Below, piece after piece: positions 55,463-64,000 of a stretch of 64,000 bases of DNA. The DNA is from Flavobacterium sp. 102 (lineage in GTDB: Bacteria; Bacteroidota; Bacteroidia; Flavobacteriales; Flavobacteriaceae). Position 1 is the stretch's first letter. Every line of letters begins with the position of its first letter. The stretch covers positions 868,001-932,000 of the forward strand of contig NZ_RBKX01000001.1 in assembly GCF_003634615.1 (NCBI RefSeq). Reading direction: 5' to 3'. The notes beneath the pieces are model-generated. The model was given only the letters and a program-made list of their open reading frames with translations, ran no database searches and was not told the origin of the DNA. Position numbers and translations under genes: made by a program.

Positions 55463-55611
55463 TTATGTTAAATGTTGAATGTTAAATTATTTAGGAGCTA
55501 ATCCCGCTTTTCACTTCAATCTTTTATGCCGAAAAACGGCACAAAAGGATTTCCGTTGCAATCGGGGCTAGAAAATCTCATTTAAAATTCAACATTCAAC
55601 ATTCAAAATAA
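55463..55611 (+). mobile_element. Heptad-arm inverted repeat, member A (with structured insert in loop)
   Basis: The left arm starts 55463 (TTATG plus heptads TTAAATG, TTGAATG, TTAAATT, then a degenerate fourth). The right arm 55579-55611 is CATTTAA, AATTCAA, CATTCAA, CATTCAA, AATAA. About 25 of 33 positions pair. It begins 5 nt after the mmsA stop and ends 9 nt before the next ATG. Confidence 0.75.
55490..55573 (+). ncRNA. Structured RNA-like element inside member A
   Basis: The outer stem AGC..CCCG (55496-55506) pairs with CGGGGCT (55563-55569). The inner hairpin has TTTT-A-TGCCG pairing with CGGCA-C-AAAA around a 5-nt loop (55522-55546). From memory, sequences opening GGAGCTA-TCCCG and closing with CAATCGGGGCTA recur in flavobacterial genomes. 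It may relate to a known Flavobacteria RNA motif, not verified. Confidence 0.55.
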
Positions 55612-58442: not shown

Positions 58443-58444
58443 AA

Positions 58445-58516
58445 TTATGTTGAATGTTAAATGTTGAAGGCTAAATGAAAACCCATTCAACATACAACAT
58501 TCAGCATTTAACATAA
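58445..58516 (+). mobile_element. Heptad-arm inverted repeat, member C
   Basis: Two 33-nt arms (58445-58477, 58484-58516) with a 6-nt loop. Left: TTATG then TTGAATG, TTAAATG, TTGAAGG, CTAAATG. Right: CATTCAA, CATACAA, CATTCAG, CATTTAA, CATAA. Starts 2 nt after the permease stop, ends 7 nt before the next ATG. Confidence 0.8.
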
Positions 58517-59906: not shown

Positions 59907-59978
59907 TTATGTTGAATTTTAAATTTTAAATGCTAAATGAAAAGGCATTCAACATGCAACATTCAACATTCAAAATAA
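59907..59978 (+). mobile_element. Heptad-arm inverted repeat, member D
   Basis: Arms 59907-59939 and 59946-59978, loop 6 nt. Left: TTATG then TTGAATT, TTAAATT, TTAAATG, CTAAATG. Right: CATTCAA, CATGCAA, CATTCAA, CATTCAA, AATAA. Starts directly after the hydA stop and ends 6 nt before the next ATG. Confidence 0.8.
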
Positions 59979-59984
59979 TAAAAG

Positions 59985-60848: not shown

Positions 60849-60855
60849 AAAATAA

Positions 60856-60926
60856 TTATGTTGAATGTTAAATGCTAAATTTTGAATGAAAGGCATTTAA
60901 CATTCAAAATTCAAAATTTAACATAG
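60856..60926 (+). mobile_element. Heptad-arm inverted repeat, member E
   Basis: Arms 60856-60888 and 60894-60926, loop 5 nt. Left: TTATG then TTGAATG, TTAAATG, CTAAATT, TTGAATG. Right: CATTTAA, CATTCAA, AATTCAA, AATTTAA, CATAG. Ends 7 nt before the preT ATG. Confidence 0.8.
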
Positions 60927-60933
60927 AAAAAAT

Positions 60934-62319
60934 ATGAGCATAAAAAATAACCGATTAACCCCGGCCGAATACCAGGAGAACTTCACTGATATTCATCCGC
61001 CATTTGAAACCAGAGATGCCGCTGTGGTGGAAGCCAACCGTTGTTTGTTTTGTTACGATCCGCCATGTATGAAGTCGTGTCCGACGTCTATCAACGTACC
61101 CAAATTCATCAGACAAATCACGACGGATAATATTAAAGGCTCAGCACATACCATTTTTTCTTCCAATATTATGGGCGCGGGATGCAGTAAAGTGTGTCCG
61201 GTAGAAAAATTATGCGAAGGCGCTTGTGTCTATAATTTAATGCACGAAACGCCTATTAATATAGCCAAACTCCAACGCTATTCGACTGAAAAAGCGATGG
61301 AAAACAATTGGCAACTCTTCGATAGAAAGCCATCAAAAGGCAAAAAAGTCGCTATTGTTGGTGCCGGTCCTGCGGGTTTGAGTTGTGCGCATACTTTGAG
61401 CCGTGAAGGAATCGATGTGACCATTTATGAAAAAGAAAGCAAAGGCGGTGGTTTGATGACTTACGGTATTGCCGCTTATAAAGTAACGCCTGAATTTTGC
61501 GAAGAGGAGGTGAATTACATCACTTCCATTGGTGGCATCGACATCAAATACAATCAAGAATTTGGCAAAGACGTCACTTTGGAACAATTACAACAAAACT
61601 ACGATGCGGTTTATATGGCGTTCGGAGTTGGATTGGCGCGTCAATTAGACATTGAAGGCGAACATTTACAAGGTGTTGAAGATGCGATTAAATTCATTTA
61701 CGAATTACGCGATAATGATTATTCCAAAATTGCCGTAGGCGATAAAGTAGCCGTAATCGGAATGGGAATGACTGCTATCGATGCCGCTACGCAAGCCAAG
61801 AGATTAGGTGCTTCCGATGTGACTTTGGTGTACCGAAGAACACAATCCGAAATGCCTTGTACTGAAAAAGAATTGGACATTGCCAAACTCGACGGTTGTA
61901 AAGTAATCTGGTTGGCATCTCCCAAAGAAATCAGAGGCGAAAACGGTAAAGTCTCTCAACTGGTTTGCGATGTAATGAAACTCGGCGAACCCGATGCCAG
62001 CGGCAGAAGAAGTCCGGTAGTTTCGGGAGAAACTTTTACGCTAGATGTAGATATGGTCATCAAAGCTGCCGGGCAAATGCCTTTCCAATCTTTGGTGAAT
62101 GACAATAATATCGAAAACAACAACGGCAAAATTGTCGTTGATGGAAAATCATCCGCTAAGATAGCCGGTGTATTTGCCGGTGGCGATTGCGTCAACGGCG
62201 GAAGAGAAGTGGTCGATGCGGTACAAGCCGGAAAAGACGGAGCCGCCGCTATTTTAAAATACATCATCAGTCCGGATTATATCATCGAATCCGAATTAAA
62301 ACCAACTTTTAATAACTAA
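60934..62319 (+). CDS. preT: NAD-dependent dihydropyrimidine dehydrogenase, PreT-type subunit
   Basis: 461 residues. The N-terminal double [4Fe-4S] region (~35-105) has CLFCYDPPCMKSCP and GCSKVCPVEKLCEGAC. The FAD motif is VAIVGAGPAGLSCA (~128-141) and the second Rossmann motif is VIGMGMTAIDAA for NAD(P)H. It resembles the small subunit of glutamate synthase and the N-terminal half of eukaryotic DPD. It passes electrons from NADH to PreA, which reduces uracil or thymine. PreA follows, separated by the ORF-bearing repeat element. Confidence 0.93.
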   Translation: MSIKNNRLTPAEYQENFTDIHPPFETRDAAVVEANRCLFCYDPPCMKSCPTSINVPKFIRQITTDNIKGSAHTIFSSNIMGAGCSKVCPVEKLCEGACVYNLMHETPINIAKLQRYSTEKAMENNWQLFDRKPSKGKKVAIVGAGPAGLSCAHTLSREGIDVTIYEKESKGGGLMTYGIAAYKVTPEFCEEEVNYITSIGGIDIKYNQEFGKDVTLEQLQQNYDAVYMAFGVGLARQLDIEGEHLQGVEDAIKFIYELRDNDYSKIAVGDKVAVIGMGMTAIDAATQAKRLGASDVTLVYRRTQSEMPCTEKELDIAKLDGCKVIWLASPKEIRGENGKVSQLVCDVMKLGEPDASGRRSPVVSGETFTLDVDMVIKAAGQMPFQSLVNDNNIENNNGKIVVDGKSSAKIAGVFAGGDCVNGGREVVDAVQAGKDGAAAILKYIISPDYIIESELKPTFNN

Positions 62320-62321
62320 AT

Positions 62322-62746
62322 TTATGATGAATGCTAAATGTTAAATGTTGAATGGAATGAAAACAGAGAACAAAATAGTAACCTTAACTTTTGATTTTTC
62401 TATTGCCATTATTGGTTTGTATAAAACTTTATTAGATCAAAAAGAGTGTGTGATTTCTAAACAATTACTTCGAAGCACCACTAGCATCGGAGCGAATGTG
62501 GAAGAAGCCAATGCCGCTCAAACTAAGAAAGATTTTATTGCGAAAATGTCGATTGCTTCAAAAGAGGCCAGAGAAACAAAATATTGGTTACGGCTTTTAG
62601 ATAAAAGTAAGCTGGTTCCCTTAGATTATTCAACATTTTAATACAGATTGAGCACATCATCAACATCATAACCAAGATTGTAAAAACAAGTCAAACGTCT
62701 TTACAATAAGAAACATTCAAAATTCAACATTCAAAATTTAACATAA
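62322..62746 (+). mobile_element. Heptad-arm inverted repeat, member F, carrying a four-helix-bundle gene
   Basis: The left arm 62322-62354 is TTATG then ATGAATG, CTAAATG, TTAAATG, TTGAATG. The right arm 62714-62746 is CATTCAA, AATTCAA, CATTCAA, AATTTAA, CATAA. 26 of 33 positions are complementary. The 359-nt loop consists almost entirely of an S23/IVP-like gene. It begins 2 nt after the preT stop and ends 7 nt before preA, exactly the placement of the ORF-less members. Confidence 0.8.
62357..62709 (+). pseudogene. Four-helix-bundle protein, 23S rRNA intervening-sequence (S23/IVP) family, frameshifted
   Basis: From the ATG at 62357 the frame encodes 94 residues: VISKQLLRSTTSIGANVEEA and KKDFIAKMSIASKEARETKYWL are the family core. 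It stops at 62639-62641. One base earlier in frame the missing last helix continues (LIQIEHIINIITKIVKTSQT) to a TAA at 62707-62709. A single T lost from the run at 62636-62639 explains this. Full length would be about 117 residues, the family norm. It could be an inactivating mutation, a sequencing error or programmed slippage. An ATG at 62345 lies inside the left arm. Confidence 0.82.
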
Positions 62747-62753
62747 TAAAATT

Positions 62754-64000
62754 ATGGCAGATATATCAACCGATTTTTTAGGCATAAAATCTCCAAATCC
62801 GTTTTGGTTAGCCAGTGCGCCACCAACCGATAAATTAATCAATGTTGTCCGTGCTTTTGAAGCAGGTTGGGGCGGCGTGGTTTGGAAAACTTTAGGTTCC
62901 CAAGTCAAAAATGTGTCTTCGCGTTACTCTTCTGTGGAATATGGAAGAAAACGCATCATGGGTTTCAATAATATAGAATTGATCAGCGACCGACCTTTAG
63001 AAATCAACCTCAAAGAAATCACCCAAGTCGTAAAAATGTTCCCCGACCGAGCGATGATTGTTTCGCTGATGGCAGATAACGACCGAAAATCATGGCACGA
63101 TTTAATCATGAAGTGTGAAGATGCCGGAGCGATGGGCTTTGAATTAAATTTTGGTTGTCCTCATGGTATGACCGAAAGAGGCATGGGCGCCGCCGTTGGC
63201 CAAGACCCGGAAATTGCCAAAATGGTAGTCGAATGGGTAATGGAAAAAGCCACGATTCCTGTAATTACTAAGCTTACGCCCAATGTGCATTCCGTTGTTC
63301 CAACCGGAAGAGCAGCGGTTGAAGGCGGAACCAGCGCACTGAGTTTAATCAATACCATACAAAGTGTCACCGGAATTGACTTGGATACTTTAGTGCCCAA
63401 TCCCTACGTAGCCGGAAAAAGTGTTTTTGGTGGTTATTGCGGTCCGGCGGTGAAGCCGATTGCTTTAAAAATGCTTACGACTGTTGCGCAAGATGAAGTA
63501 ACCAACAAAGTGCCGATTTCCGGAATTGGTGGTGTTAGTACTTGGAAAGATGCGGTTGAATTCATGTTGTTAGGCGCGACTTCAGTACAAGTTTGTACCG
63601 CAGCCATGACGCATGGTTTCCGAATAGTAGAAGACATGTGCGAAGGTCTAAACAACTGGATGGATGAAAAAGGCTATCAGAAAACCACCGATTTCATTGG
63701 CAAATCTGTAGAAAAAATCACCCATTGGGAAGACTTGGACATCAACTACCACCACATTGCCAAAATAGACCAAGACAAATGCATTCATTGTGGTTTGTGT
63801 TACATCGCTTGCGAAGACACGTCACACCAATCCATTAACATCGAAAGAGGTATTCCATATAACAATTACACGATTAAAGAAGAGGAATGTGTAGGCTGTA
63901 ATTTGTGCAAATTAGTTTGTCCGGTTGATGAATGTATCACGATGGAAGTCCACCGAGTGGCTCCCGAATATGTGAATTGGAAAGATTGGCAAGAAAGAGG
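62754..64000 (+). CDS. preA: NAD-dependent dihydropyrimidine dehydrogenase, PreA-type subunit (3' end outside window)
   Basis: 415 codons are present. The FMN-barrel domain (~1-310), as in dihydroorotate dehydrogenase, has NPFWLASAPPTD, ELNFGCPHGM and PISGIGGVSTW. A C-terminal pair of [4Fe-4S] motifs follows: CIHCGLCYIAC (~342-352) and CVGCNLCKLVCP (~379-390). It reduces uracil/thymine to the 5,6-dihydro form with electrons from PreT. The frame is still open at the window edge and probably ends soon after. Start ATG at 62754, 7 nt past the right arm of the repeat element. Confidence 0.95.
   Translation, partial: MADISTDFLGIKSPNPFWLASAPPTDKLINVVRAFEAGWGGVVWKTLGSQVKNVSSRYSSVEYGRKRIMGFNNIELISDRPLEINLKEITQVVKMFPDRAMIVSLMADNDRKSWHDLIMKCEDAGAMGFELNFGCPHGMTERGMGAAVGQDPEIAKMVVEWVMEKATIPVITKLTPNVHSVVPTGRAAVEGGTSALSLINTIQSVTGIDLDTLVPNPYVAGKSVFGGYCGPAVKPIALKMLTTVAQDEVTNKVPISGIGGVSTWKDAVEFMLLGATSVQVCTAAMTHGFRIVEDMCEGLNNWMDEKGYQKTTDFIGKSVEKITHWEDLDINYHHIAKIDQDKCIHCGLCYIACEDTSHQSINIERGIPYNNYTIKEEECVGCNLCKLVCPVDECITMEVHRVAPEYVNWKDWQER

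Follow-up and report, generated by a model that had tools for sequence, protein, structure and literature searches.

What is a gene for an S23/IVP protein doing inside a pyrimidine operon of Flavobacterium sp. 102, enclosed by two complementary arms made of heptads? For S23/IVP proteins, a ring structure has been solved but, to our knowledge, no function is known; heptameric repeats between genes are a long-standing observation, and we know of no agreed explanation for them. The gene lies at the preT-preA junction of the stretch of 64,000 nucleotides that was analysed here (the window), and the features of this junction are as follows.

60934..62319, forward strand: preT-like gene, upstream in the operon (open reading frame [ORF]; orthologue in the relative G220 75% identical)
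62322..62354, forward strand: 5' arm of the S23 element, built of heptads like ATGTTGA (26/33 positions pair with the 3' arm; self-match at lag 7, 0.77)
62357..62641, forward strand: S23/IVP (PF05635) open frame, cut short by a frameshift (Pfam E value 6.9e-21; homologue of L038)
62639..62709, forward strand: C-terminal part of S23 in a shifted frame, LIQIEHIINIITKIVKTSQTSLQ followed by a stop (sequence reading; 82% over 22 residues to L038)
62714..62746, forward strand: 3' arm of the S23 element, complementary partner of 62322..62354
62754..64000, forward strand: preA-like gene, downstream in the operon, leaving the window (ORF; G220 orthologue about 90% identical)

A frameshifted S23 gene between complementary arms

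A preliminary description made from the sequence, from which the names preT and preA were taken over with no family search behind them, had placed an S23/IVP gene between complementary arms at 62322-62354 and 62714-62746, and it was right in both respects. The match of 26 of 33 positions was equaled by 6 of 200,000 random draws with the same spacing in the window, and the profile search with PF05635 gave 74.7 bits (cut-off, 33.8; E values of 6.9e-21 to 8e-21) despite the frameshift. Two bases separate the preT stop codon from the 5' arm. The single frame from 62357 to 62709 that had been proposed does not exist, however; the ORF ends at 62641, and the conserved C-terminal stretch continues to 62709 in a shifted frame, because the run of T at 62636-62639 has one T fewer than that of the intact homologue L038. 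The genome (3.82 Mb, one contig) contains 10 PF05635 genes.

Complementary arms at S23 genes of several phyla

Complementary arms with a score of at least 24 were found beside the gene at 115 of 145 S23 loci, drawn from the genome itself (8/10), its relatives (24/28), a phylum-wide draw (19/29), and a set of named genomes (64/78); the loci of the relatives and of the phylum-wide draw were taken among the matches listed, at most 30 per genome search, and L107 and L126 were dropped for their short flanks. By inspection, complementary flanks were present at all 10 S23 genes of the genome. A null distribution from mismatched arm pairs was inflated by shared units (253/2,900 at a score of 24), and therefore control genes were used instead. 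In this control run, arms were present at 112 of 143 S23 loci (two further loci dropped) but at 0 of 30 rbfA loci (RbfA), whereas the control ORFs had arms in 3 of 53 cases beside RbfA and in 17 of 214 cases beside S23. Thus, the S23 genes elsewhere do not have unrelated flanks, which had been named as the finding that would speak against the earlier proposal, but arms of the same class.

Outside the Bacteroidota, as judged by record title, 18 of the 22 loci in the named set scored at least 24. The titles include Desulfobacterota-type bacteria, Verrucomicrobia and relatives, Planctomycetota, Nitrospirae, Clostridia, SAR324, Sumerlaeota, and KSB1, whose higher ranks are in part as we presume them to be. 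On cyanobacterial plasmids, arms of 7 or 8 nt, e.g., TTTTAGC, AGGGAGT, and AGTCAGG, were seen at 10 of 10 S23 loci, which were hand-picked, not random, among 40 listed of 43 matching records. Two of these 10 copies are antisense, one between ribonucleotide reductase genes and one between secretion genes.

Arms built of 7- or 8-nt units in tandem, with AG in phase

Autocorrelation of the arms peaked at lag 7 (z, 23.5) and lag 8 (z, 17.7), and over 104 arms, the best lag was 7 in 55, 8 in 45, and another value in 4. The most phased dinucleotide was AG (0.78 versus 0.31 in shuffled sequences; z, 37.6), and the consensus phased on it was [A/T]AGKNAW for period 7 and AAGKYWCA for period 8. With a median length of 30 nt, an arm is slightly longer than four units. 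Both arms are AG-rich when read inward, with AG exceeding CT in 101 of 115 cases, falling below it in 3, and equaling it in 11; L010, L038, and L007, which make up the window's own lineage, are exceptions with GAAT/AAAT-type units. The units of the genome's own S23 genes differ from one another (GTTATGA, TAATTGA, AGTGTTC, AAGGGAT, an octad, and others). One arm family common to all S23 genes was ruled out; the 7- or 8-nt units differ from one S23 lineage to another.

Arm period tracks the S23 protein. A tree of 100 S23 proteins, in which 12 of the 97 inner branches were starred, showed 8 changes of period where 33 were expected, and 0 of 500 shuffles came out as low, a pattern also expected from plain joint inheritance of arms and gene. 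The two arms of a locus were also more similar to each other than to those of orthologues at 65 loci and less similar at 28, and 15 of 20 syntenic groups were positive (sign test, P = 0.04), with groups restricted to an S23 identity of at least 60%. The first grouping, which gave 73 versus 26 loci, had put L038 with L024-type loci that have the same junction but another S23, and therefore the comparison was redone at this threshold.

Two loci deviate from this build. L009 carries a divergent S23 gene with arms of the opposite, pyrimidine-rich kind between two genes that we take to be amidinotransferase-like. At L190:4622-5144, a heptad hairpin surrounds a non-S23 gene, presumably an HsdR-N-like ORF, and its 5' arm is pyrimidine-rich relative to the gene.

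S23 elements sit in the gaps of operons

All 10 S23 loci of the genome lie between protein-coding frames, none in an rRNA gene; the junctions include sdhA-sdhB, nuoF-nuoG, panB-rluC-like, and mevalonate genes, with gene names read off the proteins and not from a family search. The S23 gene had the strand of both neighbors at 129 of 141 loci, the strand opposite to both at 2, and the strand opposite to one at 10, after 6 of 147 loci that lacked a neighbor on one side had been dropped. With one vote per syntenic group, 52 of 63 were co-directional, a count that rests on a grouping in which L076 was joined with L004 at sdhA-sdhB, and 260 of 319 background pairs of adjacent genes were on the same strand. 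The synteny of L076 and L004 was afterwards found to be unsupported by alignment of their flanks. The 5' arm began a median of 2 nt after the upstream stop codon (n = 110; quartiles, -3 to 10), and a median of 13 nt lay between the end of the 3' arm and the ATG that follows (n = 105). Among the 23 NuoF ends displayed, that of each of the three S23-bearing loci (L333, L349, and L361) was altered, in L333 by visible translation of the arm sequence; 18 of the 20 ends at loci without S23 had the usual form, and two (L337 and L347) were shorter.

Hairpins without a reading frame

Four neighbors of the S23 element in the window had been assigned to the same family of hairpins, with tiny or noncoding loops:

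55463..55611, forward strand: heptad hairpin with a Flavo-1 RNA in its loop (RNA fold z, -5.3; the G220 hairpin at this junction has another unit)
55496..55573, reverse strand: Flavo-1 RNA (RF01705) in the loop of the preceding hairpin (79 bits)
58444..58516, forward strand: heptad hairpin without an ORF between permease-like and dihydropyrimidinase-like genes (fold z, -6.2; site empty in G220)
59907..59979, forward strand: heptad hairpin without an ORF between dihydropyrimidinase-like and ureidopropionase-like genes (fold z, -2.1; site empty in G220)
60855..60924, forward strand: heptad hairpin without an ORF between the ureidopropionase-like gene and preT (fold z, -3.9)

The four are real, of the same heptad type, and situated at operon junctions, but the loop of 55463-55611 is not tiny, as it holds the Flavo-1 RNA. 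This RNA had 73 matches in the genome at an E value of 0.001 or lower, and since only one of the best 30 of these 73 copies is inside a heptad hairpin, Flavo-1 was rejected as a regular payload of the hairpins and its presence in this loop is probably incidental. The pattern ATGTTRA (24 nt, at most 3 mismatches) matched 27 times in the whole genome, versus 7 times for the reversed control, at about nine places, five of them in the window. Two sampled hairpins without an ORF share, by eye, the units GTTATGA and AAGGGAT with resident S23 elements. The preliminary description had also suggested that the small hairpins of the window could be internal-deletion derivatives of the S23-bearing form, since ATGAAAA occurs both at the gene start and in one short loop; this common stretch is short, and such a derivation would be no more than a possibility.

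By a fixed rule that dropped low-complexity arms and admitted some doubtful cases, 20 hairpins with 7- or 8-nt arms and no ORF were counted in 1,000 kb of seven S23-rich genomes and none in 540 kb from six genomes free of S23 (Mann-Whitney test, P = 0.003); since the S23-free genomes belong mostly to other, distant families, relatedness confounds this contrast. G122, which is S23-rich with 13 genes, had no such hairpin in 100 kb. After omission of 4 of the 20 hairpins as terminator-like or doubtful, 9 of the remaining 16 lay between co-directional, 4 between divergent, and 2 between convergent genes, and 1 was within an ORF.

Shared elements, empty sites, and alternative inserts

In two pairs of loci, L010/L038 and L008/L026, the alignment covered both arms and the gene at 69 to 72% identity and stopped at the flanks; in a third, L006/L037, it was confined to the gene and some of the 5' arm (71%). 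The partners L038, L026, and L037 are from congeners, two from G011 and one from G001. The junction of L038 in G011 is common also to L024 in G001 and to L034 in G004. Between L038 and L024, the flanks are 73 to 81% identical on both sides, whereas the S23 proteins are 19% identical and the arms are different, so one junction is occupied by two unrelated elements.

The preliminary description had asked for empty sites in sister strains. G220 has the pyrimidine operon, with proteins 75 to 89% identical to those of the window, and it leaves empty three of the five junctions that are filled in the window (gaps of 19, 15, and 17 nt), the gap of 17 nt being preT-preA itself. Of the other two, one has a hairpin with another unit and one an insert of 330 nt with ATTTTGA arms. 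In this last gap (L363), between the ureidopropionase gene and preT, the preT start region is tandemly duplicated around the 3' arm.

Conserved junctions of congeners had variable contents as well. Among the matches listed, 30 loci at sdhA-sdhB comprised 2 with S23, 9 with hairpins without an ORF (by eye), 12 with gaps of 12 nt or less, 4 with gaps of 24 to 34 nt, and 3 with other inserts. At nuoF-nuoG, 29 loci among the matches listed (L359 dropped) comprised 3 with S23, 4 with gaps of 19 nt or less, and 22 with gaps of 38 to 182 nt (one of 646 nt), which include at least eight hairpins by eye. One of these loci without S23, L352, has a hairpin with the AAAGTCATAAAGTC unit of the S23-bearing form. 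Since S23-bearing hairpins and the S23-less L352 with the same unit occur in sister genomes, derivation of the one form from the other, in either direction, is plausible at this junction. In L005, also at nuoF-nuoG, a 14-nt direct repeat, AAAAGTCATAAAGT, is present at both ends of the S23 gene and offers a possible route to a hairpin without an ORF.

Hence, both marks of a mobile genetic element were found, the same element (arms and gene together) at unrelated sites and empty sites, which favors the earlier idea of a mobile intervening-sequence-like element. Many S23 copies are nevertheless old and vertically inherited; there are 20 syntenic groups, one of them with 26 loci.

A proposed hairpin element with S23 as its cargo

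The arms, the shared elements, the empty sites, and the companions without an ORF together argue that S23 genes ride a mobile hairpin element that encodes no transposase. We consider it probable that a small mobile element of protein-coding operons, laid out like the intervening sequences (IVSs) of rRNA, carries the S23 gene as its cargo. Such an element would consist of a 5' arm in which a unit of 7 or 8 nt, mostly containing one AG, recurs in tandem about three to six times, the S23 gene, and the inverted arm, and would occupy the stop-to-start gap of an operon in the sense of that operon, from whose promoter it would presumably be expressed. Arms and gene would move jointly, and the hairpins without an ORF would be relics of S23 elements or copies mobilized by them. 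The S23 homopentamer may recognize the repeats, one per subunit, with binding leading to persistence and spread; spread could proceed via DNA or via single-stranded hairpins formed in replication, and host enzymes would supply the strand chemistry. By analogy with rRNA IVSs, RNase III might cut the S23 segment out of the transcript. Among the observations that stand against a mobile element are that it encodes no strand-cutting enzyme and that the arms score below 24 at 30 of 145 loci.

The likeness to rRNA IVSs lies in the PF05635 gene in the loop of complementary arms, in sporadic distribution, and in the need for host transcription. In Coxiella, excerpts of the published work describe a 28-bp stem around the PF05635 gene of the 23S rRNA IVS and its demonstrated excision by RNase III (PMC4990558), and S23 ORFs are also described within rRNA insertions of CPR bacteria (PMC11270868, in part). 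The elements described here differ in that they lie between protein-coding genes, have arms of tandem AG-phased 7- or 8-nt units, and are accompanied elsewhere in the genome by hairpins of the same arm class without an ORF. If the analogy extended to RNA, the arms would pair in the polycistronic mRNA, RNase III would cut the stem, and the freed S23 segment would spread as RNA. The sense bias of 129 to 2, the gene-plus-hairpin layout that is excised in Coxiella, and the better folding of the window hairpins as RNA compared with shuffled sequences all agree with this. A selected RNA stem, however, predicts that G.U mismatches outnumber A.C mismatches in the sense strand of the arms, and this excess was looked for and was absent: 90 G.U versus 108 A.C, 195 versus 214 at a looser setting, and 17 versus 18 over syntenic groups. 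Since there is no excess of wobble pairs, the complementarity of the arms is better explained at the level of DNA than by a selected mRNA stem. Moreover, a search of the genome with its 10 S23 genes for reverse transcriptase (PF00078) gave 0 matches. We therefore regard spread at the RNA level as unlikely. Of the earlier view that an IVS-like element enters mRNA, the IVS architecture within protein-coding operons remains, whereas entry into and excision from mRNA are so far unsupported.

The arms could instead be targets of regulation and not the ends of an element: a ring-shaped S23 protein would bind AG-phased repeats of its own leader and of ORF-less hairpins in other operons, for which TRAP, a ring-shaped RNA-binding regulator that binds NAG triplets at regular spacing, is the model. 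An AG that recurs in phase over about three to six tandem units would suit such a ring, and the S23 crystal entries 2gsc and 2rld each have five chains, in line with the toroidal homopentamer cited within PMC4990558 (seen in excerpt). S23 proteins are under purifying selection, with a median dN/dS of 0.09 over 107 syntenic pairs, which are not independent and from which pairs with in-frame stops, few codons, or saturated dS had been dropped; the period tracks the protein, and in copies that stayed in place, low dN/dS could reflect a host function. But movement is indicated by homology that is confined to the element while the surroundings are unrelated and by sites that are empty in close relatives, units vary widely among the S23 genes of one genome, and some hairpins without an ORF lie between divergent (4/16) or convergent (2/16) genes. 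A purely regulatory module thus appears doubtful.

A third possibility is a DNA element of the MITE or REPIN kind, moved by an unlinked transposase with S23 as a passenger. REPIN/RAYT systems also combine a gene flanked by inverted repeats with dispersed hairpins that lack an ORF (PMC3116915, in excerpt), and S23 hairpins are scattered between genes likewise; the ORF-less hairpins here are in fact related to the gene-flanking repeats. Y1 transposase genes of the same genomes, for which REP flanks are expected, had inverted repeats at 15 of 30 loci by the rule used for S23 and at 17 of 30 when counted from the ATG, among the matches listed, so such systems coexist with S23 elements. Small GIY-YIG genes had them at 23 of 24 and 22 of 24 loci, respectively, among the matches listed and with six UvrC-like loci of 30 (L255-L284) left out. 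Since both kinds of gene are repeat-flanked, inverted flanks are not peculiar to S23; the tandem 7- or 8-nt build is, as the flanks of Y1 and GIY-YIG genes have no such period. S23 elements differ from REPIN/RAYT further in having no transposase, arms that are tandem arrays, and a four-helix-bundle protein, and the S23 gene and its unit are inherited together. Y1_Tnp (PF01797) was not found among the matches listed for the five S23-bearing relatives G004, G011, G012, G013, and G014, a search that was limited to the Y1 family. With PF01797 absent from the matches listed for these five relatives and PF00078 absent from the genome, a Y1 transposase or a reverse transcriptase was rejected as necessary for S23 elements, and transport by an unlinked transposase seems rather improbable to us.

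Formation of heptad arrays anywhere by replication slippage, with S23 genes merely tolerating them, draws on the over-representation of heptameric repeats in some genomes (PMC4679880, PMC4692102, in part) but is extremely improbable in view of 0 of 30 RbfA loci and 3 of 53 adjoining ORFs with arms, a pattern that recurs in several phyla, and arms that are both AG-rich inward.

The GIY-YIG flanks are inverted, nonperiodic, and often like TGTCATTTCGACGAAGGAGAAATC, and a similar hairpin without an ORF is present at L188:5196-5272. Small GIY-YIG genes look like another REP-like system of gene plus repeat.

Relation to heptameric repeats and to other S23 genes

The STRRs of cyanobacteria are heptameric repeats. 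Others have been described as TAACTGA in Beggiatoaceae (PMC4679880), GGGAATC in Xanthomonas, and GGGGA(C/T)T in Nostoc (PMC4692102), and those of Xanthomonas form convergent pairs in 70 and 75 cases (PMC4692102; both papers in excerpt). With S23 arms they share units of 7 nt, an intergenic position, and, in Xanthomonas, frequent arrangement as inverted pairs. Xanthomonas campestris has an S23 protein, Xcc0516 (2gsc). The excerpts of PMC4679880 and PMC4692102 do not mention S23, and in the open-licence literature, with few subscription papers covered, we found no report that links S23 genes to heptad arms.

Tentatively, S23/IVP elements may constitute a new class of mobile hairpin that crosses phyla and has no transposase, nuclease, or reverse transcriptase of its own; the pentamer would read the AG-phased repeats on either side of its gene, with one repeat for each subunit, the heptamers of cyanobacteria and Bacteroidota would largely be companions without an ORF, and the rRNA IVS would be the special case that landed in rRNA. 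The link between S23 and the arms joins an orphan protein family with poorly explained repeats and gives each S23 protein its own candidate binding repeat, and the rRNA IVS would become one case of a wider element. PF05635 resembles Avd of diversity-generating retroelements and has a similar fold (PMC10053308, in part), but the S23 host genome differs from a host of such elements in having 0 matches to reverse transcriptase (PF00078).

S23 genes in conserved operons, such as sdhA-sdhB, nuoF-nuoG, and cas, may be insertions and not functional members. S23 genes have been reported in cas loci (PMC3936711, in excerpt), and operon-internal insertion may explain them. In Flavobacterium columnare, a four helix bundle gene between those for guanylate kinase and nicotinate mononucleotide adenylyltransferase was classed with phage elements (PMC5524665, in part); it may be an operon-internal S23 element.

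The S23 sites on the cyanobacterial plasmids include, besides conjugation and other genes, the junctions cas6-cas4 and Cmr2-Cmr3, the last two represented by loci L394 and L402.
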